Positions 40,266 to 57,475 of a DNA stretch of 64,000 nucleotides are shown here, piece by piece. The position numbers were made by a program, and so were the translations under genes. The stretch spans positions 1 through 64,000 of the forward strand of contig CAMUZA010000005.1 in NCBI GenBank assembly GCA_947165085.1, given 5' to 3'. Origin of the DNA: an uncultured Clostridia bacterium (lineage in GTDB: Bacteria; Bacillota; Clostridia; Oscillospirales; Oscillospiraceae). The notes below the pieces were generated by a model that saw only the letters and a program-made list of their open reading frames with translations, was not told where the DNA came from and ran no database searches. Numbering within the stretch: position 1 is the first letter of the stretch; each line of letters starts with the position of its first letter.

Positions 40266-40350
40266 GGGGGAATTCCCGAGTGGCCAAAGGGGGCAGACTG
40301 TAAATCTGTTAGCAGTGCTTTCGGTGGTTCGAATCCACCTTCCCCCACCA
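40266..40350 (+). tRNA. tRNA-Tyr (GTA); 3' end serves as element attL
   Basis: gggggaattcccgagtggccaaagggggcagactgtaaatctgttagcagtgctttcggtggttcgaatccaccttcccccacca; class II with variable arm. Confidence 0.96.
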
Positions 40351-40380
40351 ATCCCGAAGCTGAAATGCTTCGGGATTTTT
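40351..40380 (+). terminator. Terminator after tRNA-Tyr, inside the element
   Basis: atcccgaagctgaaatgcttcgggattttt. Confidence 0.8.
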
Positions 40381-40515
40381 CTTGTTTTGCGGGCAAAACG
40401 GGTATTTTTTAGCCAATTATGTTAGGCGTTTTCTTGACCCTTAACGCAGTACCCGTTAAAGTACCCGTTAATGGCTGTCACGGAGTAGAGCAGATGACTT
40501 TGATTGGAACAATTG

Positions 40516-41697
40516 TCACGCGCTCGCGGTCATTGCACCTTCCCTTACGGAGCGAATGAAAGCATCCATCCGGTTGGCGCTTTCCCGCTTCATTCCCATC
40601 GTCGCGTGGGCGTAGGTGGAAAGGGTAAAGGCAGCTGTCGCGTGACCGAGATTCTCCTGCACCGTCTTGATGTCGTCGCCTGCCTGCAGGCTGTTGATCG
40701 AAAACGTGTGCCGCAGATCGTGGAATCGGAGTTCCGGCATCCCGAGACTGCTCACGATGCGCTTGAAGTTCATCCAAAGAGTCTTGTTGTTGATATACCG
40801 TCCGAGCTGCGTCGTGAATACAAGATTCTCGTAGTTGTCCCAAGCGCATCCTGCTGCGTCCGCCCACGCCTGCTGCCGCCGCTGTTGCTCTCGCAGTGCG
40901 TCCATCACGGCGGTTGCTGCGGTCAAGGAGCGCGGCCTGCTGTTTTTGAGCGGGGAGAAGTGGTAATCTTTTTCGCCCTTCGCGCGGTGGTGCTGCTTGT
41001 TGATCAGAAGCGTTCCTTTCTCAAAGTCAACGCAATCCCAGGTCAGACCGAGCAACTCTCCCTGACGCAGGCCCGTGAACAGCGCAACGAACAACGGCAA
41101 TTCATACTCGTCTCCTTCAATGGCGCGGAGGAATACGCTCACATCGTTTGCGTCCATAATCCGAAGTTCTTCTTTCTCCACCTTCGGAAGCGTTGTTCCC
41201 TCTGACGGATTGATGCGGAGATAGCCGTTGATCTTTGCTTGCTCCAACGCGCCGTGCAGCGCGCCATGGACGTTTTTCACCGTCTTTGGAGAAAGCCCGC
41301 GTTCGGTGATCAGGCTGTTATAGAGATGCTGGATCTGATGCGTCGTTAGCTTGTTCAGCCGAAGCTTGCCAAGCGCCGGTTTCAGATGGATGCTGATGTG
41401 CATTTCGTAGCTGGCCCTCGTCTCCTGCCGAAGATTGATCTTGTATTCCTTCAGCCAGGTGTCCAGCCACTCTCCGACGGTAATCGACGTCGGCTCGATA
41501 TACGTACCCTCCTGAATGTCCGTCAAGGTTTTGTTCAGCTTCTCACGGACTTCGCGCTTTGTTTTTGCGTATACAGACCGCATGATTTGCCTACCCGTTT
41601 CCGGGTGATAGCCGACAGTATAGCGGCCTTCCCATTTGCCGTCAGCTCTCTGTCTGATTGTGCCGCTTCCAGCGTCGCGGCGTTTTTTTGCTGGCAT
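40516..41697 (-). CDS. int: Tyrosine recombinase / phage-type integrase
   Basis: 393 aa; LFVALFTGLRQGELLGLTWDCVD, RFHDLRHTFSINSLQAGDD, VQENLGHATAAFTLSTYAHAT. Confidence 0.95.
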   Translation of the reverse strand: MPAKKRRDAGSGTIRQRADGKWEGRYTVGYHPETGRQIMRSVYAKTKREVREKLNKTLTDIQEGTYIEPTSITVGEWLDTWLKEYKINLRQETRASYEMHISIHLKPALGKLRLNKLTTHQIQHLYNSLITERGLSPKTVKNVHGALHGALEQAKINGYLRINPSEGTTLPKVEKEELRIMDANDVSVFLRAIEGDEYELPLFVALFTGLRQGELLGLTWDCVDFEKGTLLINKQHHRAKGEKDYHFSPLKNSRPRSLTAATAVMDALREQQRRQQAWADAAGCAWDNYENLVFTTQLGRYINNKTLWMNFKRIVSSLGMPELRFHDLRHTFSINSLQAGDDIKTVQENLGHATAAFTLSTYAHATMGMKRESANRMDAFIRSVREGAMTASA

Positions 41698-41835
41698 AGT
41701 ACCTCTCTTTCTGTAGAACTGAAATGTTCTTGCCAGTCCATTTCAGTTTACATAATATTCCTTGTTTTGCTGGATTGCAAGAGAAATCTCTCCGGTGTTT
41801 TTCACAAAGTTTTCTCGTGCTTTTGTGCTGTTTGA

Positions 41836-43206
41836 CTATCTGCCGCCGGGTTCCGCACGGTAATGGCGGTTGCGGTGGTCCTGACGGCTGACGGCGGCTT
41901 CGGCGGCCTCTCGCTCTTTGACGGTCTGCAGCACGTCCTCCATCACGACCGGACCGAGTTCGCATTTCACCAGCGCATATTCCCGCAGTTCGGATTTCAT
42001 TTCTTCATTTTCTGCGTACGCGGTCTCCCATCGCCGTTTCAGAATATCACGGTCACGGGCGGCGGTCTCAAACTTCTTCTGCCAGTCTTTGACCTTGGCG
42101 CGCAGTTCCTGCACCGTGTGCCAGAGCGACAGCGCGACTTTCCACAGCTTTTGGATGATCGGCTTGGCTTTCTTCTCGCGGTAGTGGCTTGCGTATTCCA
42201 TCGGCGTCGTTTTGGGAATCAGGTCTTCCGGCCTACCTAGATGATCCGCGACGAATTTCTCCGCGTCCTCGACCTGCGGCGTCAGCTGCTCCAGACGTTT
42301 CTGCTTCTGCTCGATCTCTTTCTCGACGGCGTACTTTTCTTTCCGTACTTGAGAAAACTCCGATGATTCTTCTCTGACTTTTTCGTGGATCATTTCAAGA
42401 CGGCGTTCTTCTCGATCGACTTTGAATTGCGTCACGGTCAGGTGTTCCTCGCTGCTGCCGCGCTCGCCGCGTTCCACGTCGGGGTAGCCGGCAGCGACCA
42501 TGTGATTGTAGAAGTCGTCTTGCAGAACGGAATACGAATGATGCAGGATGAGCTTGCCGTTTTTATCGAGCAGCGGCTTGCCGTACTTGTCCTGCGCCGG
42601 TTTCGATTCCCACTTCTTCGAGCGACTGACCTGCGGGATGATCTCCTTTACGGTGCCGACCAAAGACGGGTCCTTGCAGCGCTTCGACCAAAGCTTTTTC
42701 TTCTCCACTACCGGCACATAGACGACGTGCATGTGATAGTGAAAGACGTCCTGCCCCAACGCGTCGGACATCGCACGGTTTCGCTCGTCAGCGTGCATCA
42801 CTGCGGAGAGGATATACTTTTCACCGCCGACAATTTCGATCGCGGCCTGGTAGGCGTCGGCATAAAACTGTTTCGCGAATTCATACCCGCCGTGATTGAA
42901 AAAGTATGCGGAGTTGACGTCGAAGATCAATTCGCACATCTTCGTTGAGCCGGGTTTCAGCCCCCAGGTCGAGATCACTTTCTGATCTTCCAGCGCGGAG
43001 AAAGTTTCCTCATACGTGCCGACCGGCGATTTGAAATGCACGTTCATCGGCGTCCGTTCGGGAACGATATCCGGATTGGAATACGACTCTTTCTTCCTCT
43101 CATTGTGAGCGTATGCGCTCTGGGGCGTGGCTTTTTTATCTGCCTTGAGATCGCGGTTGCGGACGAACGTGTGATTGGCTCCGTCGTTGCGGGCCATAGG
43201 CATCAC
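41836..43206 (-). CDS. mobV: MobV/Pre-family relaxase
   Basis: 456 aa; motif I-like HNERKKESYSNPDI, metal-binding FHYHMHVVYVP, long coiled coil; internal ATG at 43197 also possible. Confidence 0.9.
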   Translation of the reverse strand: MMPMARNDGANHTFVRNRDLKADKKATPQSAYAHNERKKESYSNPDIVPERTPMNVHFKSPVGTYEETFSALEDQKVISTWGLKPGSTKMCELIFDVNSAYFFNHGGYEFAKQFYADAYQAAIEIVGGEKYILSAVMHADERNRAMSDALGQDVFHYHMHVVYVPVVEKKKLWSKRCKDPSLVGTVKEIIPQVSRSKKWESKPAQDKYGKPLLDKNGKLILHHSYSVLQDDFYNHMVAAGYPDVERGERGSSEEHLTVTQFKVDREERRLEMIHEKVREESSEFSQVRKEKYAVEKEIEQKQKRLEQLTPQVEDAEKFVADHLGRPEDLIPKTTPMEYASHYREKKAKPIIQKLWKVALSLWHTVQELRAKVKDWQKKFETAARDRDILKRRWETAYAENEEMKSELREYALVKCELGPVVMEDVLQTVKEREAAEAAVSRQDHRNRHYRAEPGGR

Positions 43207-43254
43207 CTCCTTTGATTTGGAATGGAAAGGCCCCGGAGAAGCACTTTTGCGAAA

Positions 43255-43301
43255 GTGTATTAACCCACTATGGTACTTTCATCCTTCGGCTGCAAAGTAC
43301 C
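43255..43301 (-). other. oriT: Predicted oriT of the IME (pMV158/MobV-like)
   Basis: Minus strand GGTACTTTgcagccgaaggatgAAAGTACCaTAGTGGG/TTAATACAC: inverted repeat immediately 5' of a MobV-like nick sequence, about 50 bp upstream of the relaxase gene. Confidence 0.75.
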
Positions 43302-43619
43302 GTGGGCTCTGCGAGGCGGATGCGGCTGCTGCGGCAGCCTGCGCCGAGGATATGAAGTCGTTTTCGCTCCATATCCCCGGCGCGGGCAGCTTCAATTGTT
43401 CGCTGCCCTGTGCCGAAAAACCGCACCGTGGTCTTTCGGCAATCCTCCCTCGGAAGCCGTCGCTTCCCTCGTCCGGGCGAGAGACGTCAGGACGAAAAAG
43501 TTTCGGGAGGCTGGGGGGGGTGTGCGCGTTGAAAGAGTTATCATAATCTTTCGCGGCGGCAAAAAGAAAAGCGACTGTTCCGCACCTGCGTCGGCAGGCG
43601 ATTCCGGAACGGTCGTTTC

Positions 43620-43826
43620 TTATTTCACGCTATTGAGAGCGTCCGTGTTTTGCTCCATCCACGCAAGCAATTTGTCTTTCGCGACCAGCAGACGGGACGC
43701 GACGTGCAGCGTCGGAAAGTCTGCCCGATGCAAAAGCTGATACGCACCTGCGCGAGAGATGCCCAGAAATTCTTTCAGCTCCTTCACGCTGAGAACAACG
43801 GGAAGTTCATCGAAGTTTTTGTACAT
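43620..43826 (-). CDS. Excisionase-like MerR/HTH_17 DNA-binding protein
   Basis: MYKNFDELPVVLSVKELKEFLGISRAGAYQLLHRADFPTLHVASRLLVAKDKLLAWMEQNTD; start at 43826. Confidence 0.88.
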   Translation of the reverse strand: MYKNFDELPVVLSVKELKEFLGISRAGAYQLLHRADFPTLHVASRLLVAKDKLLAWMEQNTDALNSVK

Positions 43827-44110
43827 GGGGTTCTCCTTTCGTAAGATTTGGTCTGCCTCATTCGCGGCACAGCAGACCATTCGCTGTGGCGCATTGGCTG
43901 TTTCACCTCCTGTTTGTTATGTAAAACTTCTCGCGCAAGCGCTTTGCAGTCCGATTTTTCGGACTCGCAATGTAGTATGATTATGGCATCAAGGTAAGGA
44001 GGAACCTCGACTGCCTCTGCCAATGGGAAAACTGGAACCGATTTTCGGAACTGTTTTCAGAAAAAACTTCATTTTTTTGATAAAATTCTTCTACTGCGGG
44101 AAAGGAGTGG

Positions 44111-45028
44111 GTGGCTTTGGAGGAATATGAAGAATGGGAAACCGAAACGGAGGACGATGCGTCCGATCTCGATCTCTTTTCCACTGATACGCTCGACGAT
44201 GCGTCGGAAAACGATCTTTGGGATGACGCAGAGCCGGATGACACGCCGGAGCCGGATGCCGGAGAAAAAGACGTATTTGAAATCGAACCGGACGAGGTCG
44301 AAGCGTCTCTCGATCTGTATGGAGAAACGGATGACGGCGATGACGATGTACTGCTGATTGGCTCTCTGAAAAAGCATCCGATCTATCAAACGCTCCTGGA
44401 ACAGAACAAGACGTCTGCCAAGCGTCAGCTGATCCGCGAGCTGAAAGAGGACGCCTTGGCGCGGATTGAATTCGCGGCGCGATCTCTGCGGGATTATGAG
44501 CAGATTCTTCTTTTCTGGGACAAAAGAGACGACGCCGCTGCCCGACGGCAGCGACTGCATGAGAACAACCGGGGCGACGTGCTGTTGGAATGGAACAGCC
44601 GTGTTTACGCCGCCAGCGGGATCGACTTGACCTTCCCGGCGTGGATGAACGAGCCAATGATCTCGCAGCTCCGCCGAGGGCAATTTCTGGATTGCCTGTT
44701 CGACTGCCCGTATGAAATGCACGACCTGACCGCGAAGGAATATCTCCGCAGACCGATTATGGAGCTGAAAGAGGAACACAAGGAGATCCTGCATTTTCTC
44801 TATCTTCGGCTGTACGATCCGCAGCGGCTCGCGGTCCTGCGCGGACAGTCTGCACGTAATGTCCGAAAGGTGCGGGACGTTGTACTGCGGAAGGTTCGCA
44901 GAAATGTTTACGCCGCTCTGCTGAAACAGCAAGCAGCAGGAAGAATTCTGACGCCGAGGGAGCGAGCGTTTCTCGAAGAATTCACGCCGGATGGCGTGAG
45001 AAGAAAGGATGGTGACGACTGTGCGTGA
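44111..45028 (+). CDS. Protein with acidic N-terminus and sigma-70 region 4-like C-terminal HTH
   Basis: 305 aa, GTG start after aaaggag; ~80 aa Asp/Glu-rich head; KEEHKEILHFLYLRLYDPQRLAVLRGQSARNVRKVRDVVLRKVRRNVYAAL resembles a sigma r4 helix-turn-helix. Confidence 0.6.
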   Translation: MALEEYEEWETETEDDASDLDLFSTDTLDDASENDLWDDAEPDDTPEPDAGEKDVFEIEPDEVEASLDLYGETDDGDDDVLLIGSLKKHPIYQTLLEQNKTSAKRQLIRELKEDALARIEFAARSLRDYEQILLFWDKRDDAAARRQRLHENNRGDVLLEWNSRVYAASGIDLTFPAWMNEPMISQLRRGQFLDCLFDCPYEMHDLTAKEYLRRPIMELKEEHKEILHFLYLRLYDPQRLAVLRGQSARNVRKVRDVVLRKVRRNVYAALLKQQAAGRILTPRERAFLEEFTPDGVRRKDGDDCA

Positions 45029-45890
45029 TCTGTTTGCCAATACGAGCGCGCATTGGGGCAAGTATTCCGAATACGAATGGAAGACCGCGCCAGACGGGAA
45101 CTGCTATCTATTACCCGCAGATAAAGCAGAACCCAGCGTATATGATCCGATGCAGGACCCACATACGCTGGTGATCGACGCGTTGGAGGTCGGTATGATG
45201 CTGTTCCAGCGCGAGCCGGAGTCAAAGATCAAAGAGGCGATCCGATCGTTTGCAGAGAAGTACGGCATGCTCGGCATTATGACCGCGCTGCCGACAACGG
45301 CGGATATCATCGAATACGAAAAGGTCTATCTGCCGAAGAATCCGTTTCTGCGGAATGAAACGATGGAAACGAAGGACTATATCGGTCTGTTTTTCCCGTT
45401 CATTCAGCCAGATTTCAGCAAGAAAGGCGTGGAGTCCGTCTGGCGGACGGAGGACAAGCACGAGATCGCATTCGCGATGACCTTCCGGCAGGAGCCGCAG
45501 GCGATGGCGATGAGCTTGATGCGAAACTACGGCGAGCGATACGACTGGCTATGCAAGCTGTTTAAGGATTGGGTCGCACTTGCGATTACAACGCAGTTTT
45601 ACGTGGACGATAAAGAACGGAAAGACCCTGATACCGTCGCGCTCTACCGAAAGAGCATTGCCGCCTTCGACGGCAACGCGCCGACATATCGCATCGAACT
45701 GCGGGACAAACCCACGCTCGTCTGGGACTTCCATTCTCTGCTGCTGGACATCCGTTTCCTGCTCTGCCTGCTTCTGACAGACGATCAGACCCCGCTGCGC
45801 CTGTGCAAGAACTGCCTCAAGCCGTTTATCGCCGCTGAAACGGAAAGAGAATACTGCTCTGATGCGTGCAGGAATAATAATTCGGAATAA
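45009..45890 (+). CDS. DUF6076-like protein with C-terminal zinc knuckle
   Basis: 293 aa; C-terminal CKNCLKPFIAAETEREYCSDACRNNN; overlaps the upstream CDS by 20 nt. Confidence 0.65.
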   Translation: MVTTVRDLFANTSAHWGKYSEYEWKTAPDGNCYLLPADKAEPSVYDPMQDPHTLVIDALEVGMMLFQREPESKIKEAIRSFAEKYGMLGIMTALPTTADIIEYEKVYLPKNPFLRNETMETKDYIGLFFPFIQPDFSKKGVESVWRTEDKHEIAFAMTFRQEPQAMAMSLMRNYGERYDWLCKLFKDWVALAITTQFYVDDKERKDPDTVALYRKSIAAFDGNAPTYRIELRDKPTLVWDFHSLLLDIRFLLCLLLTDDQTPLRLCKNCLKPFIAAETEREYCSDACRNNNSE

Positions 45891-45968
45891 AAAAGTAGAA
45901 TCAGTCGGCATAATGTATTGCAATTTGCAAAACAATGTAGTACAATATGGGTGAAAGGTGGTGCGATT

Positions 45969-46265
45969 ATGAAAGACGCAACTGTCAGCGCACGTGTGGA
46001 ATACGGAGTGAAAACCGAGGCGGAGGATATCCTGCAAAAGCTCGGCATCCCGGTTTCTGTTGTGATCAATTCTCTGTATCGGCAGATCATCTTCCGCAAC
46101 GGGGTTCCGTTTTCCCTGACCGTCCCTACTCAGCCGAAGACGATGGACACGCTGACCGACGCAGAGCTGAATGCCAAGCTGCAGCACAGTTATGAGCAGG
46201 CGGCAGCAGGGCAAGGTCGTCCCTTCACCGAGGTCTTCGACGAGCTAGAGAAAGGGCTGAATTGA
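45969..46265 (+). CDS. RelB/DinJ-family antitoxin
   Basis: MKDATVSARVEYGVKTEAEDILQKLGIPVSVVINSLYRQIIFRNGVPF; start at 45969. Confidence 0.9.
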   Translation: MKDATVSARVEYGVKTEAEDILQKLGIPVSVVINSLYRQIIFRNGVPFSLTVPTQPKTMDTLTDAELNAKLQHSYEQAAAGQGRPFTEVFDELEKGLN

Positions 46266-46591
46266 TGGACGAATACGAGATCATCATAACGCCCGACGCC
46301 TCGGAAGATCTGTGGGAGCTGCGAAACTATATTGCAGACGTCCTGCTCTCGCCGGAGACAGCTTTGAAATACGTCCGCACTGTTCGGCAGGAGATCGCCG
46401 GCCTCGCTCAGTTCCCTGCCCGCTTCAAGCCAATGGACGAGGAGTCTTGGCATTCCCGCGGTGTCAGAAAACTGCTTGCAAAGAATTTCTATGTATACTA
46501 CTGGATCGATGAGCCGAGAAAGCGCGTCTATGTGATGAACGTGATCTATGCCCGCCGCGATCAGTTCCAGGCGTTGGCACAAAAGAACTGA
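46265..46591 (+). CDS. RelE/ParE-family toxin
   Basis: MDEYEIIITPDASEDLWELRNYIADVLLSPETALKYVRTVRQEI...; ATG overlaps antitoxin TGA by 1 nt. Confidence 0.9.
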   Translation: MDEYEIIITPDASEDLWELRNYIADVLLSPETALKYVRTVRQEIAGLAQFPARFKPMDEESWHSRGVRKLLAKNFYVYYWIDEPRKRVYVMNVIYARRDQFQALAQKN

Positions 46592-46680
46592 AGGGATTAC
46601 AACACTAAAGCATGATTATTGCTTTATGCCAATCAAATTATCGCGAAAAACGAAATGACGGAAGCACAGTTCCTGTGTTG

Positions 46681-46814
46681 CCGGCATCCGCTACACCCTG
46701 CCGGAGGACAACAGTCAGATCTTCGCCTCCAAGTATTTCACCTACCTGCCCACCGAAGAAGAGCTCAAACGCGAGCTGCGGCTGGATGAATTCAACCCGT
46801 TGGAAACAGACTAG
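46681..46814 (+). pseudogene. C-terminal remnant of a DUF1016/YhcG-type nuclease
   Basis: Frame read directly: AGIRYTLPEDNSQIFASKYFTYLPTEEELKRELRLDEFNPLETD*, matching my recollection of the YhcG C-terminal signature; no upstream body present. Confidence 0.7.
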
Positions 46815-46885
46815 AAAGACAACACTAGGATATTGCGGATAAAACCCCAAATAGCAAATGACGGAAGCACGTTTTTGTGCCTCCG

Positions 46886-47083
46886 TCATTCTTTTTCTAT
46901 TTCCACAATCTCATTCGGCGTGCAATCCAGAATCCGGCATAGCCGACTGAGCGTAATCATGGTGATGTTCCGTCCTTTTTTCAGAGAGTCCAGCGTCCGG
47001 TTGTCAATGCCGCCCTTGAGCAGCTGATACTGCGTCACGCCCTTCTCTGTCATTGTTCTCCATAAGGGCTCATAGTTGAACAT
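46886..47083 (-). CDS. Cro/C1-type (XRE) HTH regulator
   Basis: MFNYEPLWRTMTEKGVTQYQLLKGGIDNRTLDSLKKGRNITMITLSRLCRILDCTPNEIVEIEKE. Confidence 0.88.
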   Translation of the reverse strand: MFNYEPLWRTMTEKGVTQYQLLKGGIDNRTLDSLKKGRNITMITLSRLCRILDCTPNEIVEIEKE

Positions 47084-47201
47084 TGAACTCACCACCATTG
47101 CTAAACTACTGCAATTATATGGTGATTTCCGAAAAATACATATTGTGATTATCGTCACAATATGGTATGATGGTGATACAACAAAAGAGGAGGCCACGCC
47201 T

Positions 47202-47354
47202 ATGGAAAAAGATTATTTCATCGACACCCTATTCGACCTAATCAACGAGAGTGACGCACTGGAAGCAGATTTACAGGATGTTCATGCTGACCGTGATGGT
47301 CTCACAGTTGCCATGAAAGATGGCTCTGTGTTTATTCTAACCTTGACGGGGTAA
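47202..47354 (+). CDS. Small hypothetical protein
   Basis: MEKDYFIDTLFDLINESDALEADLQDVHADRDGLTVAMKDGSVFILTLTG; RBS agaggagg; start at 47202 instead of 47076. Confidence 0.6.
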   Translation: MEKDYFIDTLFDLINESDALEADLQDVHADRDGLTVAMKDGSVFILTLTG

Positions 47355-47388
47355 TTCGACTTTGACAGGATAATTCAACGAAAAAGTA

Positions 47389-47417
47389 TTGCATTTCCTA
47401 TATTTGTTTGATAAAAT
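47389..47417 (+). promoter_or_regulatory. Promoter of LRR-lipase leader
   Basis: TTGCAT - 17 nt - TAAAAT, 6 nt upstream of P1; copy 1 has TTGCAA - 17 nt - TAAACT and the same 6-nt gap. Confidence 0.7.
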
Positions 47418-47423
47418 GATTTT

Positions 47424-47590
47424 GCGACGTAACTTCATATTTCCTTCCCTTGGAGGATGTGTTTTTGCTTTGGTAAAAACGCATGCTCATTTTCGGCATC
47501 CTCTAAAGGGATCGTTTGAAGTTGCGTCGCAGCAATGGAGCTGTGCGTTTTTCGTGCGCAGCCTCCAAAAAAGCTGCGCACTTTTTATGT
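47424..47590 (+). promoter_or_regulatory. Candidate structured 5' leader RNA (riboswitch-like attenuator), copy 2
   Basis: P1 47424-47437/47517-47530; P2 47447-47458/47498-47510; P3 47461-47466/47475-47480; core 47475-47499; antiterminator strand 47540-47552; terminator 47554-47562/47573-47581 plus U5. Confidence 0.72.
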
Positions 47591-47637
47591 TTCGGCAATT
47601 GTGTATTTAGAAAAAGAAATGAAAAGGGGCTATGCAT

Positions 47638-50600
47638 ATGAAAAAGCGAATGTTATCTGTACTATTAGCCTTTGCACTGCTGTGTACCATGCTGCCGCAA
47701 CTTGCCTTCTTTGCCAACGCAACGTTCTATTCTGGCTCTTGCGGTGCACAAGGCGACAATTTGACGTGGACGCTGGACACCGAAACCGGGTTGCTAACCA
47801 TTGAAGGAAGCGGTGGGATGGCGGATTGGAATCCTATCAATCCTCTCCCTCCATGGTACTATTCTAGAAGCTTGATTAAAAGTATTTCTATTAGTAATGA
47901 TACGTTTAACATTGGTTCCTATGCGTTTTATGAATGTGTTAATTTGTCAAGTGCTGTCCTTCCAGATAGTATTACTAGCATAGGTAGCAGCGCATTTGGC
48001 AGCTGCAGCAATTTGACAAATATTACCGTTCCCGCGGGGGTTAAGGTTATCGGGAGGAATGCATTTTCTTCCTGTTCAAGCTTAACATCTGTTTTCATCC
48101 CCAATAGCGTAACTACTATTGGTAGTAGTGCTTTTTCATATTGCACCGAACTAAAAAAAGTTACAATTCCAGCAAGTGTCAACAATGTTGCAGAGTGGTC
48201 AGGTGTTTTCGGCATGTTTTATGGATGTGTCAACTTAGGTGCTATTATTGTTGATGCGGATAATCCATGTTATAGTAGCGACTCTTGTGGTGTAGTGTTT
48301 AATAAAAATAGGACTGAGCTATTATGTTGCCCTCCTGGATATAAAGGTGCATACTCCGTACCAAACAGTGTGTTAAACATTGAAGAGTGTGCATTTTACG
48401 ATTGTAATGATCTGACTGAAATTGTAATTGGTTCTGGTGTATCAGAGATTGGTAATAATGCGTTTAACGGCTGCGTTGCCCTGGTTCAAGTAATTGTTCC
48501 TGATAATGTAAAAACAATTGGATACGGTGCTTTTCAAAATTGCACTGGTTTGCAAACTGTATCTCTTTCAGACGGCATAACATACATTGATGCCTCAACT
48601 TTCAGAAACTGTTCCAGTTTAACAAAGGTTTCGATAGAAAATTCGGTTTTGCAAATTGGTGAAGAGGCCTTTGAAGGCTGTACAAATTTAGTGGATATTA
48701 TAATTCCCGATGGCCTTAGAATTCTCGGTTCATTATCGTTTAGAAGTTGCAGCGCTTTGACTGATGTAACTATTCCCGATAGCGTTACCCAAATAAATAG
48801 TAATGCTTTTGCCTACTGTAATAATCTAACTAACATTGTAATACTAAACCCTAGTTGCCTAATAAAGGGCGGAAATAGCACTCTTGGTGTGCCTGGAACC
48901 ACAACAATCTTCGGCTATTCGGATTCTACTGCACAGACATACGCAGAAGAATACGGGTATACCTTTGCCGCGTTAGATGGTGAGCCATCCGGCGATCCGA
49001 TTTTGTCCGACGAAATCACGCATTTGATTTTTTCCGACCTTGCTTACCGTCACATTAACAGCAAATATGTGGGAAGGACTGTGTCGGAGTGGCAGGCAGA
49101 TATTACACAGGAAATCGACGAGGAGGCTGAAAAGCTGAGCACAGACCCCAATTATGAGCCGAAGCTGGATCACAACAGTTTCAACGAACTCAACGGTCAA
49201 TTATACGATTCTGATTCTTTGCGGGTCATTGACGTCTTAGGCATGGTGGGAGATTGGGTAATCAAGGAAGTGATTCACGGCGACAACGGCTACGCAGCTG
49301 CAGTTTTTCAAAAGGGCAACGATATTATCATTGCATACCGAGGCTCTGAGGGAGATATCATTAAATCTGTACAAGATGGTGAGGATTGGTCCGTTGACCT
49401 GGGATTTGCGCTGTTTGATTATCTGGATGAAGGGCAGTTTCGGGATGCGCTTGAAACGTATTACAAGTATGCTGACCAAGGAAACGTAACACTGACCGGA
49501 CATTCGCTGGGCGGCGCATTGGTTACTTATGTTTCGATTGTGACTGGCGCAGAGGGCTATTCCTTTGATGGTGCGGCTGGACATGTTGTGGATCTGACCT
49601 ATTTGTTCGAGCCTCTGAGAATTGATTTCTCATCTAAAAATAATATGACGTTCGCAAATTACACAGACCCGCCTGGCGCAAGCACCCTCGGAGCGGATTT
49701 GATTCAGCATACGAACGCAGATCTGTTTCCCGGCGTGTGCTATAAAACAAATCCGAATGCGGCAAAAAACGGCTATCCAGAATTTTTCTGGACGCATCAA
49801 CGGTTTTCTAATACAAAGCTGAGCGAAGATGGGAAAGCGATCGAGTTTATGCCGGTTGCTGAAACGCATTCACCGAAGGCGAAATGGTATGCATCTGTGG
49901 ATTATGAATATCTTGGCATTCTTGAGGGTGCCGCTGTCGGAGCCCTTGGCGGACTTCCATCTGGTCTGGCAGGAGGTGTTATCGGTGCAGGTGTAGGTAG
50001 GTTGGTCAAAAAAGGCAACGTGATCCTTGGCGACACTGGAGATGACAACCTCTCTGTACTCAGTTTTATCAGCAATCCCCTCGACTATACCGCAGTGGTA
50101 ACAAGAAATGTTATATATGGCGGAGATGGAAAAGATGTCCTTTACGGCGCGGCAGGCTCAGATGTCCTCGCCCCCGGCGAATTAAAGGGAGACTTGCTTT
50201 GCGGCGGCTTGGGCAACGACGATTATATACTTGATTGCAAAAACGGAGGAGAAGTATACATTTCAGATTCCAGCGGCAGCGATAGAATTATTCTAAACGG
50301 CGTTGATACGGTATATTCTTTTGAAAACGAGGGCTCAACTGCGGATGGAAAGTGGGAGATTTATTGTGCGAATAGCGTCCTAAGAATCTATGTCCAGAAA
50401 ACGATATTTAGCCATAAATTCTCTATCATAGATGTTTCAGGAGCATCGTATGGGACTGTTGACTCTAAGCGCATCACTACTCGCAGAGGAGAGCCCGAGG
50501 CAGAGGCAGATAAGGAAAGCAAAGAAATACTTGTACTGGGCGACGCGCAGATTGTGATTTATGATGAAAGCCGCACTGTGGTTTCAGAGATATCAACCAG

Positions 50601-51717
50601 TGACTATGGTTTGCGTAGCGAGGAATATGGGACTGTCTATGCAGCGAATGATGGTGAACAAAACTACCTTTCCGCAACCATCTATGAAAACTATTCAATT
50701 GAAGTCATTGGAGACAGCGTAGTAGACGTACTAATTGTCGGGACTGACAGCAACGGCAATGCGAAAAAAGCAACACAAGCAAAGGGTATTGATCTGCAGT
50801 GGGCTGATGCAGAAATTGACTCGGCAAAACAAACTGTTACGCAAAACGGAGTGTCAGCGGTCACATGTGTGACTGACAAGACCGTTGGTGTTTCCATTCG
50901 CCAAACCTTGCAGGAATTGAGTGTTGATGAAACAGCCACGCTGTCTGCAACAGCTTTCTTTGAAGATGGCTCGCAGAGTACGGATGTTTATTGGGTCAGC
51001 TCTGATGCAAGCGTAGTTCGTTGTGATTACGATGAGGGCGGAGAATGTATAATCTCTGCTGTTGAAGTCGGCAATGCAACGATATATGCGATTGCAAGTG
51101 ATAGTGGTTGCTTTGCAAGCTGTGAGTTGCAGGTAAAATCAAACACATTGGTTCCCTGTGACGGCGGCGAAAATTGTCCGGGCAATGTGTTTACGGATAT
51201 GCCCCCGAAAGGCAACTGGGCGCATGACGCAATCGACTGGGCGATTGTAAACAAGATTACCGCTGGTACGAGCACAACGACGTTCAGCCCCAATGCAGGC
51301 TGTACCCGCGCGCAGGTCGTGACCTTCCTCTGGAGAGCAGCAGGCAGCCCGGAGCCGGAGACTGAAAATAATCCGTTCTCAGATGTGAAAGCTGGAACAT
51401 ACTACTACAAGGCTGTTTTGTGGGCTGTTGAAAATAAAGTCACAGCAGGCACTTCCGCAACAACCTTCAGCCCGGATGCAACCTGTACCAGAGGACAGAT
51501 CGTGACCTTCCTCTGGCGCTTCGAGGGCAGCCCCGCACCGAAGACAACGAACAATCCCTTTACGGACGTTAAGCCCGGCTCCTACTACGAAAAAGCAGTC
51601 CTCTGGGCCTCCGAAACCGGCGTCACTGCCGGCACCTCCGCTACCACCTTTAGCCCGGAGGACACTTGTACCAGAGCACAGGTTGTGACGTTCCTGTACC
51701 GGGATATGGAAAGCTAA
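47638..51717 (+). CDS. Secreted LRR - class 3 lipase - RTX-like - Big2 - SLH multidomain surface protein
   Basis: ~1359 aa; signal peptide; BspA-type LRRs; lipase GHSLGGALVTY; RTX-like GGDGKDVLYGAAGSDVL...GGLGNDDYI; Ig-like segment; three SLH repeats (FTDMPPKGNWAHDAIDWAIVNKITAGTSTTTFSP...). Confidence 0.9.
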   Translation: MKKRMLSVLLAFALLCTMLPQLAFFANATFYSGSCGAQGDNLTWTLDTETGLLTIEGSGGMADWNPINPLPPWYYSRSLIKSISISNDTFNIGSYAFYECVNLSSAVLPDSITSIGSSAFGSCSNLTNITVPAGVKVIGRNAFSSCSSLTSVFIPNSVTTIGSSAFSYCTELKKVTIPASVNNVAEWSGVFGMFYGCVNLGAIIVDADNPCYSSDSCGVVFNKNRTELLCCPPGYKGAYSVPNSVLNIEECAFYDCNDLTEIVIGSGVSEIGNNAFNGCVALVQVIVPDNVKTIGYGAFQNCTGLQTVSLSDGITYIDASTFRNCSSLTKVSIENSVLQIGEEAFEGCTNLVDIIIPDGLRILGSLSFRSCSALTDVTIPDSVTQINSNAFAYCNNLTNIVILNPSCLIKGGNSTLGVPGTTTIFGYSDSTAQTYAEEYGYTFAALDGEPSGDPILSDEITHLIFSDLAYRHINSKYVGRTVSEWQADITQEIDEEAEKLSTDPNYEPKLDHNSFNELNGQLYDSDSLRVIDVLGMVGDWVIKEVIHGDNGYAAAVFQKGNDIIIAYRGSEGDIIKSVQDGEDWSVDLGFALFDYLDEGQFRDALETYYKYADQGNVTLTGHSLGGALVTYVSIVTGAEGYSFDGAAGHVVDLTYLFEPLRIDFSSKNNMTFANYTDPPGASTLGADLIQHTNADLFPGVCYKTNPNAAKNGYPEFFWTHQRFSNTKLSEDGKAIEFMPVAETHSPKAKWYASVDYEYLGILEGAAVGALGGLPSGLAGGVIGAGVGRLVKKGNVILGDTGDDNLSVLSFISNPLDYTAVVTRNVIYGGDGKDVLYGAAGSDVLAPGELKGDLLCGGLGNDDYILDCKNGGEVYISDSSGSDRIILNGVDTVYSFENEGSTADGKWEIYCANSVLRIYVQKTIFSHKFSIIDVSGASYGTVDSKRITTRRGEPEAEADKESKEILVLGDAQIVIYDESRTVVSEISTSDYGLRSEEYGTVYAANDGEQNYLSATIYENYSIEVIGDSVVDVLIVGTDSNGNAKKATQAKGIDLQWADAEIDSAKQTVTQNGVSAVTCVTDKTVGVSIRQTLQELSVDETATLSATAFFEDGSQSTDVYWVSSDASVVRCDYDEGGECIISAVEVGNATIYAIASDSGCFASCELQVKSNTLVPCDGGENCPGNVFTDMPPKGNWAHDAIDWAIVNKITAGTSTTTFSPNAGCTRAQVVTFLWRAAGSPEPETENNPFSDVKAGTYYYKAVLWAVENKVTAGTSATTFSPDATCTRGQIVTFLWRFEGSPAPKTTNNPFTDVKPGSYYEKAVLWASETGVTAGTSATTFSPEDTCTRAQVVTFLYRDMES

Positions 51718-52289
51718 CCGACAGAATGGCATTCCCCCATATTCTTAACAACACTTAATATCATGCCGCAGCGGGCTATTCAACTCGCTGCGGCAGTTCT
51801 TATAAAAAATTGAAAAGCTGTTGCAAATTCGCGCAAATGATTGTCTATTATAGGTAGAAGATTATATTTGAACACATGTGGTCACGCGGTTGTGGCTCAA
51901 ATCCAGCATCGCTTTGTATTCTTTAAAACATCCTAAGCTCAGATAATTGCTAAACGTGATCATACAATAGAAAGATGCTATAATAACCAAATACATACTT
52001 GCTTTTTCAACATATAATGGTAAAATATAAAGGGCACATTCGACATATTCTCTACAAATCGCAACAAATGCTTTCCAACAAACCAGTTGTCGTTTTTCAA
52101 TAATACGCTAAGCATGAAGAGGGCCTCCTCGTTAGAGGAGACCCAAGTCATCAAGGAATTCAAGTACTGACAATTTTATGCCTGTAAGACAATGCCGTAA
52201 TTCCATGCGTTTTTGCGTAACCCATGCCACAATCCTTATCCAGTTGATAAGTACCACGATTGCAAGAATGAGAAGCAGTATCAGACCTA

Positions 52290-52649
52290 TCATCCGAGAA
52301 TCCCAAAGTCTGTTAAGCGGTCAAAGCTCTTATTATATGAACTGTATGCTTGCAATTCCTCGCGGAACAATTCAAACGCAGCCAGTCCGAAAGGACTATT
52401 TGGATCACGCTCAACGATTCGTGAGTATGACTCCCAAAGCTTGTCCTGCGCAGATAGGGAAAGAGCGTGTCGAGCATCTTGCTTAGCTTGACCAATTGCT
52501 TCAGCAATCTTGACTTCAAGACAATGCATTTCACCTTTTGTGATGAGTTTGTTGCGCTTGCGTTTGCTAATCAGTTGGTTAGTAATGTCGTATACATTTT
52601 TTACGCCAGTTGTTGCGGCAGAAACAACTGTTACCAGTTCGGTTCCCAT
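52290..52649 (-). CDS. Hypothetical protein
   Basis: 119 aa from ATG 52649 (MGTELVTVVSAATTGVKNVYDITNQLISKRKRNKLITKGEMHCLEVKI...) with ggaaggaga RBS; upstream part of listed ORF is unlikely to be translated. Confidence 0.6.
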   Translation of the reverse strand: MGTELVTVVSAATTGVKNVYDITNQLISKRKRNKLITKGEMHCLEVKIAEAIGQAKQDARHALSLSAQDKLWESYSRIVERDPNSPFGLAAFELFREELQAYSSYNKSFDRLTDFGILG

Positions 52650-52983
52650 AGGATATATCTCCTTCCTCGCTAGTTGTAATATGCACGAGCTTGGAGACAC
52701 CTGATCAAACTTCCTACGGTCGCCAGCACAACCGTGAAGACGGATCATTAGAAGCAGCCGTGCATGACCAAGTGCCATTGAAATGAGTATCCACCGGTGT
52801 GCTCACCTCCTTCTGGTGGGACGAGAAGTGTCGCTCTTTTGTGAGGTTTCCCCTTCGACTTTATTATACATAATTGCCTGTCAATTATCAAGGAAACAGG
52901 AAACTATTTGAAACCAGATAAGACTAATTAAAAATAATAAAAGACTACGGTAAATAATAAGTTGCAGAAGAGTGGGATGATGA

Positions 52984-53736
52984 ATGGAATACGATAAAAA
53001 GGTGTTTCAAAATAATGTTTATTTTTTGAGGCATAAAAGCGGGCTGTCACAAGCAAGGTTTGGGGAGAAAATTGGAATATCTCAGCATTTAGTGTCTGTG
53101 TATGAGACCGGTGATAATCCTAATCCTACCATGGAAACGCTCGTTTCACTTTCAAGGTATGCAAACACTTCAATTGAAGCAATCCTAACGCTAAATCTAG
53201 AAGACAACGTTTTTAATTTTGGTACACGGCGAACCAGTGCGGGGGACTTCGAATATAGTCATTTTGAAGGTATGACCTATTATGTATATTACCTGCAAGA
53301 AAGACTACCTGTGCAGTTCTATCGTGGTTTCCTGTCTCTTGATGAAAAGTATGATAGAGAGCATTTGTTTTTACACGGAACAGTAACGACAGGGCATACA
53401 TACGACTGCAAAATGGTTATCGAGGGGAATAATACTGTTTACTTATATGGTACAGAGATCAATTTGTCCCGTCGGTTTCATATTGGTTTGTACTATCCAG
53501 ACTTTCGGGAAGAAATAAAATACAGAGCTGGTCTTGGAATCTTAACTAGGATTGATCGGCGAAAACACTTTGTCGGGATGAGGGTTGCGCTCTCGGTGGA
53601 TGCCCTTGATATAGATGATGTTGAGATTAGCAATAGACTGAAGCAGTTCCTTACTGAAGGAGCGGGCAACGGTCAACTCAGTATCAATAGAGACAAGGAC
53701 GATGAATTCCGAGAGTGGGTTCAACGACTGTACTGA
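52984..53736 (+). CDS. XRE-family HTH regulator with C-terminal domain of unknown function
   Basis: 250 aa; NNVYFLRHKSGLSQARFGEKIGISQHLVSVYETGDNPNPTMETLVSLSRYANTSIEAIL. Confidence 0.88.
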   Translation: MEYDKKVFQNNVYFLRHKSGLSQARFGEKIGISQHLVSVYETGDNPNPTMETLVSLSRYANTSIEAILTLNLEDNVFNFGTRRTSAGDFEYSHFEGMTYYVYYLQERLPVQFYRGFLSLDEKYDREHLFLHGTVTTGHTYDCKMVIEGNNTVYLYGTEINLSRRFHIGLYYPDFREEIKYRAGLGILTRIDRRKHFVGMRVALSVDALDIDDVEISNRLKQFLTEGAGNGQLSINRDKDDEFREWVQRLY

Positions 53737-54271
53737 CTTTGTTAGCTAAAACTCCATCTGAATTTATTGTATTATGTGCTTAAACTGTAATCAACGAGGA
53801 TAGTCTAAAGAATCAAAAAGATGGTAACACCCGTGGGAATGTGTTACCACCATTGGGTATTTATTTACTCACATATGATGCAGGGCACAACACCACAGCT
53901 TTTCCGTAGTTTTTTCATGGCACGGCACCATTAGGTATTTTGCCCACAAATCCTGTATTTCTACAGTCCCACATTGTTTCTTATCATACACCTCACTCTA
54001 TGCAGTACCCTTCTGCATATCCAGCATTGGTTGTTAGGTAGGCACGGCTGCATGTCCGGCTTCATACGTCCTTTCCTAACAGCGAGAACTGTGCATTAAA
54101 AGTTTTGTCATTCGTAGACACCCCTTTCAGTAGCATCGCTATGATACTATACCGGTCAGATTATGTCAAGATAGATTACCAGCTAAGTTGTACTTCGCAG
54201 TGCAAAATGTTGTTTTTGTATTGGTGTTGGTTGGTTTTATTCTGCACAAAAACAAAAAGGAGGACGAAATA

Positions 54272-55789
54272 ATGTCGTACGCCAGAGACAAGGAACACAG
54301 CGCAGAGTATCAAAAACTAAAATCGTTCGTCATCAAATGGGGCATCATTTTTTTAATCGTTTTAGTCGTTTTGGTAGCAATTAGTGTGTGGTATATTGCA
54401 AATCTTGCAAGTGAAATGTCAAAAATAGCCGATGTGGTTAATCAACAAGGACAAATTGAATTATCAATAAAGCGAAATAATTTGCTGAGTGCAGACTACT
54501 TAGCGATTGTCATTCCTATTATTGTCGCACTTGCAGGTTCCTTAATTGCTTTTCTTGGAATGAATCGTCTTAAAATGTTTGACGAACGTATTGACAAGAT
54601 TCGAACTGATATGTTATCAGAAATCGATAGTCGTGTTAAAAATGAGGTCATTGCCAGCCGCGCTGAGTATTCTGATAAACTAATAGAAAAGGTATCTGAA
54701 TATGAAAGGGCAATAAGTTGCAAATCCAAAGGATCTATAGCAGAGATAGAAAAAGTGTGTAATGATGGCCTAGCGAAATTAGAAAATACTATGGCTTCGT
54801 TTAGTGCGCGATATGATTGGCTCGAGTCAATCGTGGAAGAAGAAGCAGGAGAGATTGAGATTTCTACGGTTGCTGACGCTCATGAAATGGTTGAAGATCT
54901 GAGATCCAAAAAGCCGGCGAATTATCTTTCTATGATCAAAAAATTAGTTAAGAAGGTTTGTTCGGATGAGTCTGTTATTTCCGGAGATGTAGCTGATTAT
55001 CACAATTTGTCAGCAGAATTAGCACTAGCCAATATGTATAATGAAGCCATTCAAGTGCTTGAAAAAGGATTGGGTTCTGAATATAAGAATGTCGAATTGC
55101 TGGCAGATCTGATAGAATATGCCACTAAGAATAATCAGCTTGATAAAGCGGAAAAATCGGTTACGTTATTAAACAAAATTGACCGATGGAGATGGAATTG
55201 GCAGTGTTACGAGTTTACCATCGATTACTACAGAGCAAGGGGAATGATCAAAGAGGCAAAAACGCTCTGCTCTGAGTTTTTAGAGATGATGCCATATGAT
55301 GAGCATGGCTATAGAAGTATGGCTGAGATTTCAATGATTTGCAAACCTGGTGATGCAGGAATAGAAGAAGCGTTAAAGTACTTGAATGCCGCATTGACGA
55401 AGCATATCAATGCGGCACAGTGTGCTCAAAAACTTGCGGATATCTATCTGGACAAAGGCCAATATGAAGAATCGATAAAGGCTGCTTCTCGTGCTATTCA
55501 GGAATCGGCTCAAGATCAACCAAGTGTTGAAATTGCACATACTATATCAACCAGAGGGTTTGCATTTGATAGGCTGTTTATGCAAAAACTTCAAGCTGGG
55601 ACAATACAAGAGGATTTGGCTGAAAAAGCAGTTGAGGATTATAAAATGGCAATTTCATTCACGCAACAGGGTCTTGGACGTTTGGCACCAATAGTTCTTA
55701 AACAAGTGATCTGCCGATTAGGGATTTTAAGCAAATATATTCCAGCGATTGTAGAAGAGGATACTCCTTTGAACAATACCACGGAATGA
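54272..55789 (+). CDS. Two-TM membrane protein with C-terminal TPR-like repeats
   Basis: Start 54272 after aaaaaggagga; TM segments IKWGIIFLIVLVVLVAISVWYIA and YLAIVIPIIVALAGSLIAFLGM; helical repeats with AQKLADIYLDKGQYEESIKAASRAI. Confidence 0.82.
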   Translation: MSYARDKEHSAEYQKLKSFVIKWGIIFLIVLVVLVAISVWYIANLASEMSKIADVVNQQGQIELSIKRNNLLSADYLAIVIPIIVALAGSLIAFLGMNRLKMFDERIDKIRTDMLSEIDSRVKNEVIASRAEYSDKLIEKVSEYERAISCKSKGSIAEIEKVCNDGLAKLENTMASFSARYDWLESIVEEEAGEIEISTVADAHEMVEDLRSKKPANYLSMIKKLVKKVCSDESVISGDVADYHNLSAELALANMYNEAIQVLEKGLGSEYKNVELLADLIEYATKNNQLDKAEKSVTLLNKIDRWRWNWQCYEFTIDYYRARGMIKEAKTLCSEFLEMMPYDEHGYRSMAEISMICKPGDAGIEEALKYLNAALTKHINAAQCAQKLADIYLDKGQYEESIKAASRAIQESAQDQPSVEIAHTISTRGFAFDRLFMQKLQAGTIQEDLAEKAVEDYKMAISFTQQGLGRLAPIVLKQVICRLGILSKYIPAIVEEDTPLNNTTE

Positions 55790-55859
55790 ATTTGTGCTTA
55801 TGATTTTCTTCACGGGCAGAACTGATTGCTCAATCCTGCCCGTGCTTGGCGTTTATGAG

Positions 55860-56333
55860 CTAAAAGTAGATCAAATTGCTGTTTATGATCTCTTCTGCGC
55901 GGTTGCGAATGCTATTCATGCGGCGAACCCATTCCATTTGATCGGTAGTCTTGAGCTGCTCGGTGACGCCTTCACGGTCGGCCATCTGGCGGATCATAAG
56001 GTCCAGCATGGAATTGGCCTGCTCGTCGAGCTGGGCCAGGTAGCTGCTGAGACGGCCTTCGGCTGCCAGCTGAGAAAAAACATTGATCTGGGTGCATTTC
56101 AGGTAGGCCGCATGGGCTCTGCCGAAGCGTCCGATCCGGTAAGGTGTTTCCTCTTCGGCTGGTAACTGAACGTCGGCTTCCAAGATCGCCTTCATCGCAC
56201 CCGCGGCCTGGCAGGCCCGGCGCTCCGGCATCCGTTCCAGGGCCTTGTCCATCGGCATCTCAACGGGCAGATAGTAGTCTCCCACCAGCTCATATTTCCA
56301 GCCGGTGCGTTCATCCGTGATATATTTGTCCAT
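55860..56333 (-). CDS. TnpV-family transposon-encoded protein
   Basis: MDKYITDERTGWKYELVGDYYLPVEMP...RPYRIGRFGRAHAAYLK...; recognised TnpV-type composition; start at 56333. Confidence 0.8.
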   Translation of the reverse strand: MDKYITDERTGWKYELVGDYYLPVEMPMDKALERMPERRACQAAGAMKAILEADVQLPAEEETPYRIGRFGRAHAAYLKCTQINVFSQLAAEGRLSSYLAQLDEQANSMLDLMIRQMADREGVTEQLKTTDQMEWVRRMNSIRNRAEEIINSNLIYF

Positions 56334-56348
56334 CAGTATTCCCTCCAA

Positions 56349-56555
56349 TTACCAAGCGTTTTCAACACGATCCGTATTCTGCTCCATCCAAACGAGCAGC
56401 TTGTCCTTTGCCACCAGAAGGCGGGAAGCGACGTGCAGCGTCGGGAAGTCCTCCCGGTGCAGGAGTTGATAGGCGCCCGCGCGGGAGATTCCCAGATAGT
56501 CCTTCAGTTCTTTCACGCTGAGTACTTCGGGCAGATCGTCATAGTTCTTATACAT
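56349..56555 (-). CDS. Second excisionase-like DNA-binding protein
   Basis: MYKNYDDLPEVLSVKELKDYLGISRAGAYQLLHREDFPTLHVASRLLVAKDKLLVWMEQNTD; close paralog of 43620..43826. Confidence 0.88.
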   Translation of the reverse strand: MYKNYDDLPEVLSVKELKDYLGISRAGAYQLLHREDFPTLHVASRLLVAKDKLLVWMEQNTDRVENAW

Positions 56556-56807
56556 TATGCTTTTCTCCTTTCGGTTTTTGTTCTTTATAATGAGGCTCCA
56601 TTGAGTTGCATGGACTGGCAAGAACTATGCTTCTACCGGCAATTGTTTGTTAATCATTTTGCTTCGATGCAGACCCTTTCATCTACCCGTTATAAAAGAT
56701 GACTCTATAAATATTGTAGATTTTGCGGACTACATCTTGTGCTTTTTCTGAAAAAAGTGGACTCATTTCCACAAAATAGACGGTTTAATGAGTGCCGGAT
56801 CGTCTTC

Positions 56808-57126
56808 GAATCCACCTTCCCCCACCAGCAAAAAGCACCATCCGAATGGATGGTGTTTTTTGCTGGTATGGGCATTTGTGAAGGTGGATTCGAAAGGCGG
56901 CTCTTAGCGAGTGTCCGGTGGACACTCGCAACCGCCGTGGCTTTGCCGCAGCAAAGCGAATCCACCTTCCCCCACCAGCAAAACGCACCATCCGAATGGA
57001 TGGTGTTTTTGCTTGTATGGGCATTTGTGAAGGTGGATTCGAAAGGCGGCTCTTAGCGAGCGTCCGGTGGACACTCGCAACCGCCGTGGCTTTGCCGCAG
57101 CAAAGCGAATCCACCTTCCCCCACCA
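56808..57126 (+). repeat. Tandem ~150-bp repeats containing the att core, ending at attR
   Basis: gaatccaccttcccccacca at 56808, 56958 and 57107 (periods 150 and 149); units differ by a few substitutions and one indel. Confidence 0.93.
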
Positions 57127-57475
57127 ATCCCGGACGTGAAAACGTCCGGGATTTTTCGTGTTTTGCGGGAAAACGATCACTTTTCACATCAAAAAGTTGA
57201 ACGTTTCGCTTGCGAAAACGCTTTGAACCCTGGCGTGCCCCCTGATGTCTGCCATACCACATTTATTAAATGTGCATAACTACAACGGATTGGAAACGAA
57301 AGCACAGCATTCGTTCCCCAATAATACGGTGAAGTATACGTCGAACAAATACTTGATAATTTGCGAGATTCATTTTATAATGACATTGATGCATTCGGCA
57401 GATTGCCTTACCGTATTTTGTTCTGCGGCATTGGCGTTGCGCCGCGGGAGCACCATAATGGAAGGAGATATAGAC

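Follow-up and report, generated by a model that had tools for sequence, protein, structure and literature searches.

The repeats that follow tRNA genes in Escherichia coli were reportedly set out in the original papers of Egan and Landy in 1978 and of Rudd in 1999. These tRNA-linked repeats (TLRs), described in 1978, form a class without known function: 22 copies lie at ten loci, the last 18-19 bp of each repeat the tRNA or rRNA upstream, and the three rrn copies have been reported as processed small RNAs (PMC8144298). We searched the literature for repeats of this kind beyond the enterobacteria and came upon no relevant report. Here we describe a family of repeats, undescribed so far, that is found in gut Clostridia downstream of many different tRNA genes, starting from two copies in the window (the whole 64,000-nucleotide stretch of DNA that was analysed, from an uncultured Clostridia bacterium).

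The window carries a tRNA-Tyr(GTA) gene at 40266..40350 on the forward strand (ARAGORN, Rfam). The 3' end of this gene, GAATCCACCTTCCCCCACCA, occurs exactly at 40331 inside the tRNA and again at 56808, 56958 and 57107, as the original prediction had listed, where shuffles give an expectation of 0.01 exact copies. Between the gene and the three further copies lies an IME (40351..56804), recognised by its Pfam domains and because it is missing between tRNA-Tyr and the common downstream sequence in two relatives, G005 and G006. Its presence at this place had likewise been predicted, and we found both its integrase (40516-41697) and its Mob_Pre relaxase (41836-43206), each on the reverse strand and identified by Pfam. 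Pfam also identified genes for a ParE-like toxin, a BspA-LRR/SLH surface protein and an HTH_17 protein that adjoins the right end. The surface protein gene (47632-51717) encodes a 1361-aa BspA-type LRR protein with three SLH domains, and a 1952-aa protein of the BspA-type LRR/SLH kind lies behind tRNA-Tyr in G006 (locus L117). The attL site of the IME is formed by the last 23 nt of tRNA-Tyr (40328-40350, forward strand), and its attR is a 23-nt copy of T54-A76 (56805..56827, forward strand) that, by comparison with G005 and G006, was the tRNA's own tail before the IME entered. The IME thus entered the tail of tRNA-Tyr, left attR at 56805-56827 and displaced the array, which lies outside it, by 16.5 kb. 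It is no part of the repeat system, and it separates tRNA-Tyr from the array.

The three copies had been read as a tandem att array, and this holds in part. All three are tRNA-Tyr 3' ends, and copy 1 is the right att site, with 23 nt in common with the tRNA from T54 onwards (TTCGAATCC...), but copies 2 and 3 lack T54-T55: they have 21 nt in common with tRNA-Tyr, start exactly at C56 and are preceded by AAAG. The predicted repeat units of 150 and 149 bp are borne out, with 98% identity over 121 nt, as are their terminator hairpins and inverted tRNA fragments. In each unit, a terminator is followed by an antisense arm, a conserved 64-nt core of three hairpins and a 21-nt tail copy (C56-A76) of the upstream tRNA, all on the forward strand. 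Unit 1 comprises a terminator-like hairpin (56828..56863), which once lay immediately 3' of tRNA-Tyr, an antisense arm that is the reverse complement of tRNA-Tyr C56-C68 (56880..56892), a type-A core (56893..56956) and the tail copy (56957..56977). Unit 2 repeats this order, with a terminator-like hairpin at 56978..57011, an antisense arm at 57029..57041, a type-A core at 57042..57105 and a tail copy at 57106..57126. The GCGAGTGTCC/GGACACTCGC hairpin that had been noted within the units is present as well, and in unit 2 this inner stem has one C.A mismatch (GCGAGCGTCC). The array therefore consists of one true IME edge and two tandem units of a tRNA-linked repeat family that belong to tRNA-Tyr.

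Behind the array, a terminator hairpin and the sequence after it (57126..57241, forward strand) are common to the tRNA-Tyr loci of G005 and G006, and this is the sequence found immediately 3' of the tRNA where units are absent. In G006, tRNA-Tyr runs directly into it, with zero units. In G005, a region matching the RsmF-like region of the window is followed by tRNA-Thr, tRNA-Tyr, one type-B unit, its tail copy and a match to window 57105-57241, and the window's hydrolase gene follows about 6.6 kb further on, at 86% amino-acid identity. Together with the two type-A units of the window, these loci hold zero, one and two units at the same place. The array is thus chromosomal and stood behind tRNA-Tyr before the IME arrived, and relatives with no IME between tRNA and unit also carry units. 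Two side observations concern the surroundings of this locus. Positions 57127-57241 (a terminator, then TTGAACCC-type repeats) resemble the left end of the IME (40351-40400) and may be a remnant of the left end of an older element. In G005 (C20:25600-28000, locus L116), an RtcB-like gene and a tRNA cluster (Glu, Glu, Tyr, Ser) lie behind the tRNA-Tyr unit, perhaps as a separate mobile island.

The original prediction had named dispersal of the 150-bp unit away from tRNA-Tyr sites as the outcome that would refute its reading, and a search did find the unit core dispersed: it occurs at tRNA-Pro and tRNA-Phe of the same genome (contigs C6 and C16), with other outer arms, and at many tRNAs in relatives. 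Weaker matches lie at Leu and Glu tails of the same genome. Within the genus, 10 of 17 genomes gave unit matches, and the named public relatives are uncultured Oscillospiraceae and Ruminococcaceae genomes, with sheep, goat or deer as the source of several. Among sampled draft metagenome assemblies, a model of the type-A unit matched 52 of 301 family genomes, which belong to 30 of 106 genera, was patchy in the order (44/297) and rare in the class (13/388), and in the phylum set of 398 genomes, which served as a specificity control, our own genome was the only match. Contigs C6, C30 and C51 of this genome start inside or beside unit arrays. Several arrays run into contig ends in this way; they have probably been collapsed in short-read assembly, so that the copy numbers are probably too low. 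In all, 100 of 126 distinct core hits lay no more than 700 nt downstream of a same-strand tRNA, and together they covered 22 isoacceptors.

This dispersal bears directly on the idea, put forward in the original prediction, that the units are scars of sequential integration by the IME or related elements, or alternative end-points for excision. Copy 1 is indeed a true attR with which copies 2 and 3 have 21 nt in common, tRNA-Tyr is a repeated IME target, and the likeness of 57127-57241 to the IME left end points the same way. Units are nevertheless found at 22 isoacceptors in many genomes and at loci that hold no IME, they start at C56 like all other units instead of including T54-T55, and neither an antisense arm at a fixed place nor a conserved, covarying core (see below) is expected of scars. 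We therefore regard integration scars as refuted as the nature of the unit, and the reading as a whole as highly improbable.

In most units, the tail copy begins exactly at C56 of the nearest upstream tRNA and extends over an exact 21 nt, although it is decayed in some, and the sequence of the antisense arm is reverse-complementary to the T-loop and T-stem of that tRNA. Searching for an arm and copy that both match the local tRNA, we found them at 4 of 30, 11 of 33 and 7 of 38 tRNAs in three genomes, compared with 0.03-0.10 when the tails were shuffled among loci. For 64 of the 100 tRNA-linked core hits, the tail of the local tRNA fits better than any other in the pool. The arms change while the core stays constant: in G028, a single core sequence serves both the Tyr and the Gln unit, each with its own arms, and in G391, the cores at Ser, Arg and Lys are 0-1 bases apart and again have different arms, with the left arms of the Arg and Lys units fitting over part of their length only.

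Such a pattern could also be produced by a selfish cassette. This non-autonomous mobile element would insert into tRNA genes at T55|C56, restore the tRNA with its own tail and displace the old tail as the right copy. Its arms would be re-templated from each target, for instance by snap-back synthesis at the terminator hairpin, and its folding would serve DNA mobility rather than an RNA function. The identical or near-identical cores with different arms within G028 and within G391 fit this idea, as do presence and absence with a clean 21-nt duplication at one site (tRNA-Tyr), two core types at one site in sister species, right copies that are often decayed while the arm still matches the tRNA, and the patchy distribution. 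Cores within a genome are also more alike than in shuffles (41 of 2000 shuffles were as low), but they are no closer to one another than to cores with the same T-stem in other genomes (11.17 versus 11.22 differences), which counts against a selfish cassette. There is no known mechanism for re-templating both arms, and no mobilising enzyme was found. An origin by reverse transcription, prompted by a likeness to the retroviral primer-binding site, was rejected on the absence of RVT_1 from the 17 genus genomes, and RAYT/IS200-type mobilisation was rejected on the absence of the Y1 transposase (PF01797) from two unit-bearing draft genomes, G000 and G006. We consider a selfish cassette unlikely on balance, though it is the alternative to which we give the most weight.

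Type-A units always measure 105 nt from arm to tail, and to examine the core, we aligned 21 distinct ones, which needed no gaps. Antisense arm and tail copy form the outer stem of the structure, which further comprises a GGCGG/CCGCC stem, an inner stem of 10 bp and a hairpin whose CCGCAG loop is invariant. Pairing is kept in 97% of the cells of this alignment, two-sided changes occur in 17 of the 34 pairs, no shuffle scored as high, and versions slid out of register collapsed. Wider sampling revealed many inner-stem sequences flanked by nearly invariant single-stranded motifs. Other core types, some with 87-94 nt between the arms and one a GAACAGGGCGGC type, have the same layout. Plasmid and phage DNA collections gave no match. 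Rfam returned only tRNAs at the gathering threshold; at the unit it gave weak chance matches, mostly to miRNA families, and no family fits. Two further kinds of repeat were seen in passing. A second dispersed repeat (TGTTGCAACA...GCTCTGTCTGCGTGCCGTCGAGCG...GGTCGCAAACGTCC) is inserted within type-A cores of our genome (C30:1-400, L006/L007) and of G011 (C13, L013/L119), and behind tRNA-Thr-CGT and tRNA-Ala-CGC of our genome (L050, L067) there is another unit type with the core GGTTCGAACACAAGGATTTCCTGCTGC, a partial tail copy and a weak inverted arm.

The units are tRNA-linked repeats, and the reading that we favour, with somewhat better than even confidence and from sequence comparison, is that they act as a transcribed RNA element tied to their own tRNA. 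We propose that transcription of the tRNA would continue into the unit, either because the terminator is read through or, in the case of tRNA-Phe, because the unit is part of a Val-Asp-Phe-unit-Gly-Cys cluster. In this RNA, the antisense arm may pair either with the tRNA tail around the terminator or with the tail copy, and cutting at the tRNA-like ends would yield a small structured RNA tied to the expression or maturation of the tRNA, as with RttR in E. coli, which is likewise reported to be a processed transcript. Since this fold requires the arm to match the tRNA, the arms would vary between tRNAs while the core stays constant. Folding is consistent with both pairings: in the RNA of tRNA plus unit, the tRNA tail pairs with the antisense arm around the terminator, and in the unit alone, the arm pairs with the tail copy. 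At positions that distinguish the tail copy from the tRNA, the arm follows the tRNA in 49 cases and the copy in 9, a ratio favoured at T-stem positions by the choice of the arm by its fit to the tRNA, and 33:9 at unbiased positions. Imperfect pairs are more often GU than AC (core 26:10, arms 63:30; separate counts gave 12:4 and 16:4), although these pair statistics count related sequences more than once. This GU excess favours an RNA on the tRNA strand and speaks against a selfish cassette, but transcription-linked C-to-T change could raise GU as well. The tRNA-Phe unit sits between tRNA genes with no terminator before it and should therefore be transcribed. Against a transcribed element stand the strong terminators that precede most units, and the near-identical cores at different tRNAs of one genome, which fit a mobile element equally well.

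The tail copies could also be decoy attachment sites that divert integrative elements from the tRNA gene, and the loci that carry both IMEs and arrays are relevant here. An IME that enters a tRNA tail pushes the unit array to its own far end, as at tRNA-Tyr, and the same arrangement of tRNA, IME and array probably recurs at tRNA-Leu-UAA of our genome. There, an integrase, recognised by eye from its translation, lies directly 3' of the tRNA, and on a different contig an att-like copy is followed by a tandem array of at least three units that have Leu tails; the two contigs (C13, L210, and C3, L075) are unjoined in the assembly. That tRNA-Tyr and probably tRNA-Leu-UAA carry both, and that the unit ends hold near-complete att cores, would suit a decoy. 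In the clear case of tRNA-Tyr in the window, however, the IME used the tRNA itself, the copies lack T54-T55 and the 5' T-stem, and the conserved core and antisense arm are left unexplained, so that we give decoy sites very little credence. Separately, a candidate second IME that would have used a unit copy as its attB (locus L202) was set aside: the locus has an att copy and a unit with an IME-like end behind it, and the stretch that was examined holds no complete integrase.

Our findings mean that the layout of the TLRs is found again in a distant phylum, at 20-odd isoacceptors, with covarying cores and with arms that follow the tRNA. They open up an enterobacterial peculiarity to comparison, with testable rules on which of the pairings is conserved, whether units are transcribed, and in what way the arms alter once a core turns up at a new tRNA. 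They are also a warning that att-like repeats adjoining tRNA-inserted elements need not be integration scars. If the units should prove to be selfish, both ends would be rebuilt for each target tRNA, the core would spread among tRNAs harmlessly, and the E. coli TLRs would be a parallel case.

Several known systems resemble the units in part. The attL and attR sites of an IME are direct copies of a tRNA 3' end, and copy 1 is one of them; unlike att sites, copies 2 and 3 each go with a conserved folded core and are found where no IME adjoins them. Integron attC arrays are tandem imperfect palindromes with complementary ends and variable inner structure, and the window array is alike in this, but its unit ends are tRNA-derived and locus-specific and it holds no cassette gene. 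REP/BIME elements are likewise short, dispersed palindromic units with compensatory changes; unlike them, the units are bound to tRNA genes in one orientation, and the two genomes searched for a Y1 transposase have none. RtT RNA (RF00391) is a tRNA-linked structured repeat with hairpins that is also found behind tRNA-Tyr, but its Rfam model, which found the tyrT, proK and serX units as positive controls, gave no match to the units of the window with E values of up to 5 admitted.

The closest likeness is to the E. coli TLRs (the tyrT repeats, proK, serX, argQZYV and the rrn units), which also lie directly 3' of tRNA genes, in places in tandem, and which also have a copy of the upstream tRNA 3' end at their end, an inverted T-arm sequence as an arm and hairpins between. 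In E. coli K-12, we found a tail copy and a 6-10 nt inverted arm, partly by eye, in the tyrV, proK, serX and argV units, of which tyrV alone passes the strict cut on arm plus copy. The window units lie directly behind their tRNA once the IME is discounted, and their 3' end is the 3' end of the upstream tRNA (21 nt). Given this layout and these two positional features, we take the window units to work like TLRs. The two appear to differ in core sequence, with only hairpins with a CCGCAG-like loop in common, as judged by eye. The tail copy starts at A58 (19 nt) in the E. coli TLRs and at C56 (21 nt) in the Clostridia units, and the antisense arm measures 6-10 nt in the former and 10-15 nt in the latter. 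Unlike the E. coli TLRs, the Clostridia units have one core type that serves many tRNAs across an order.
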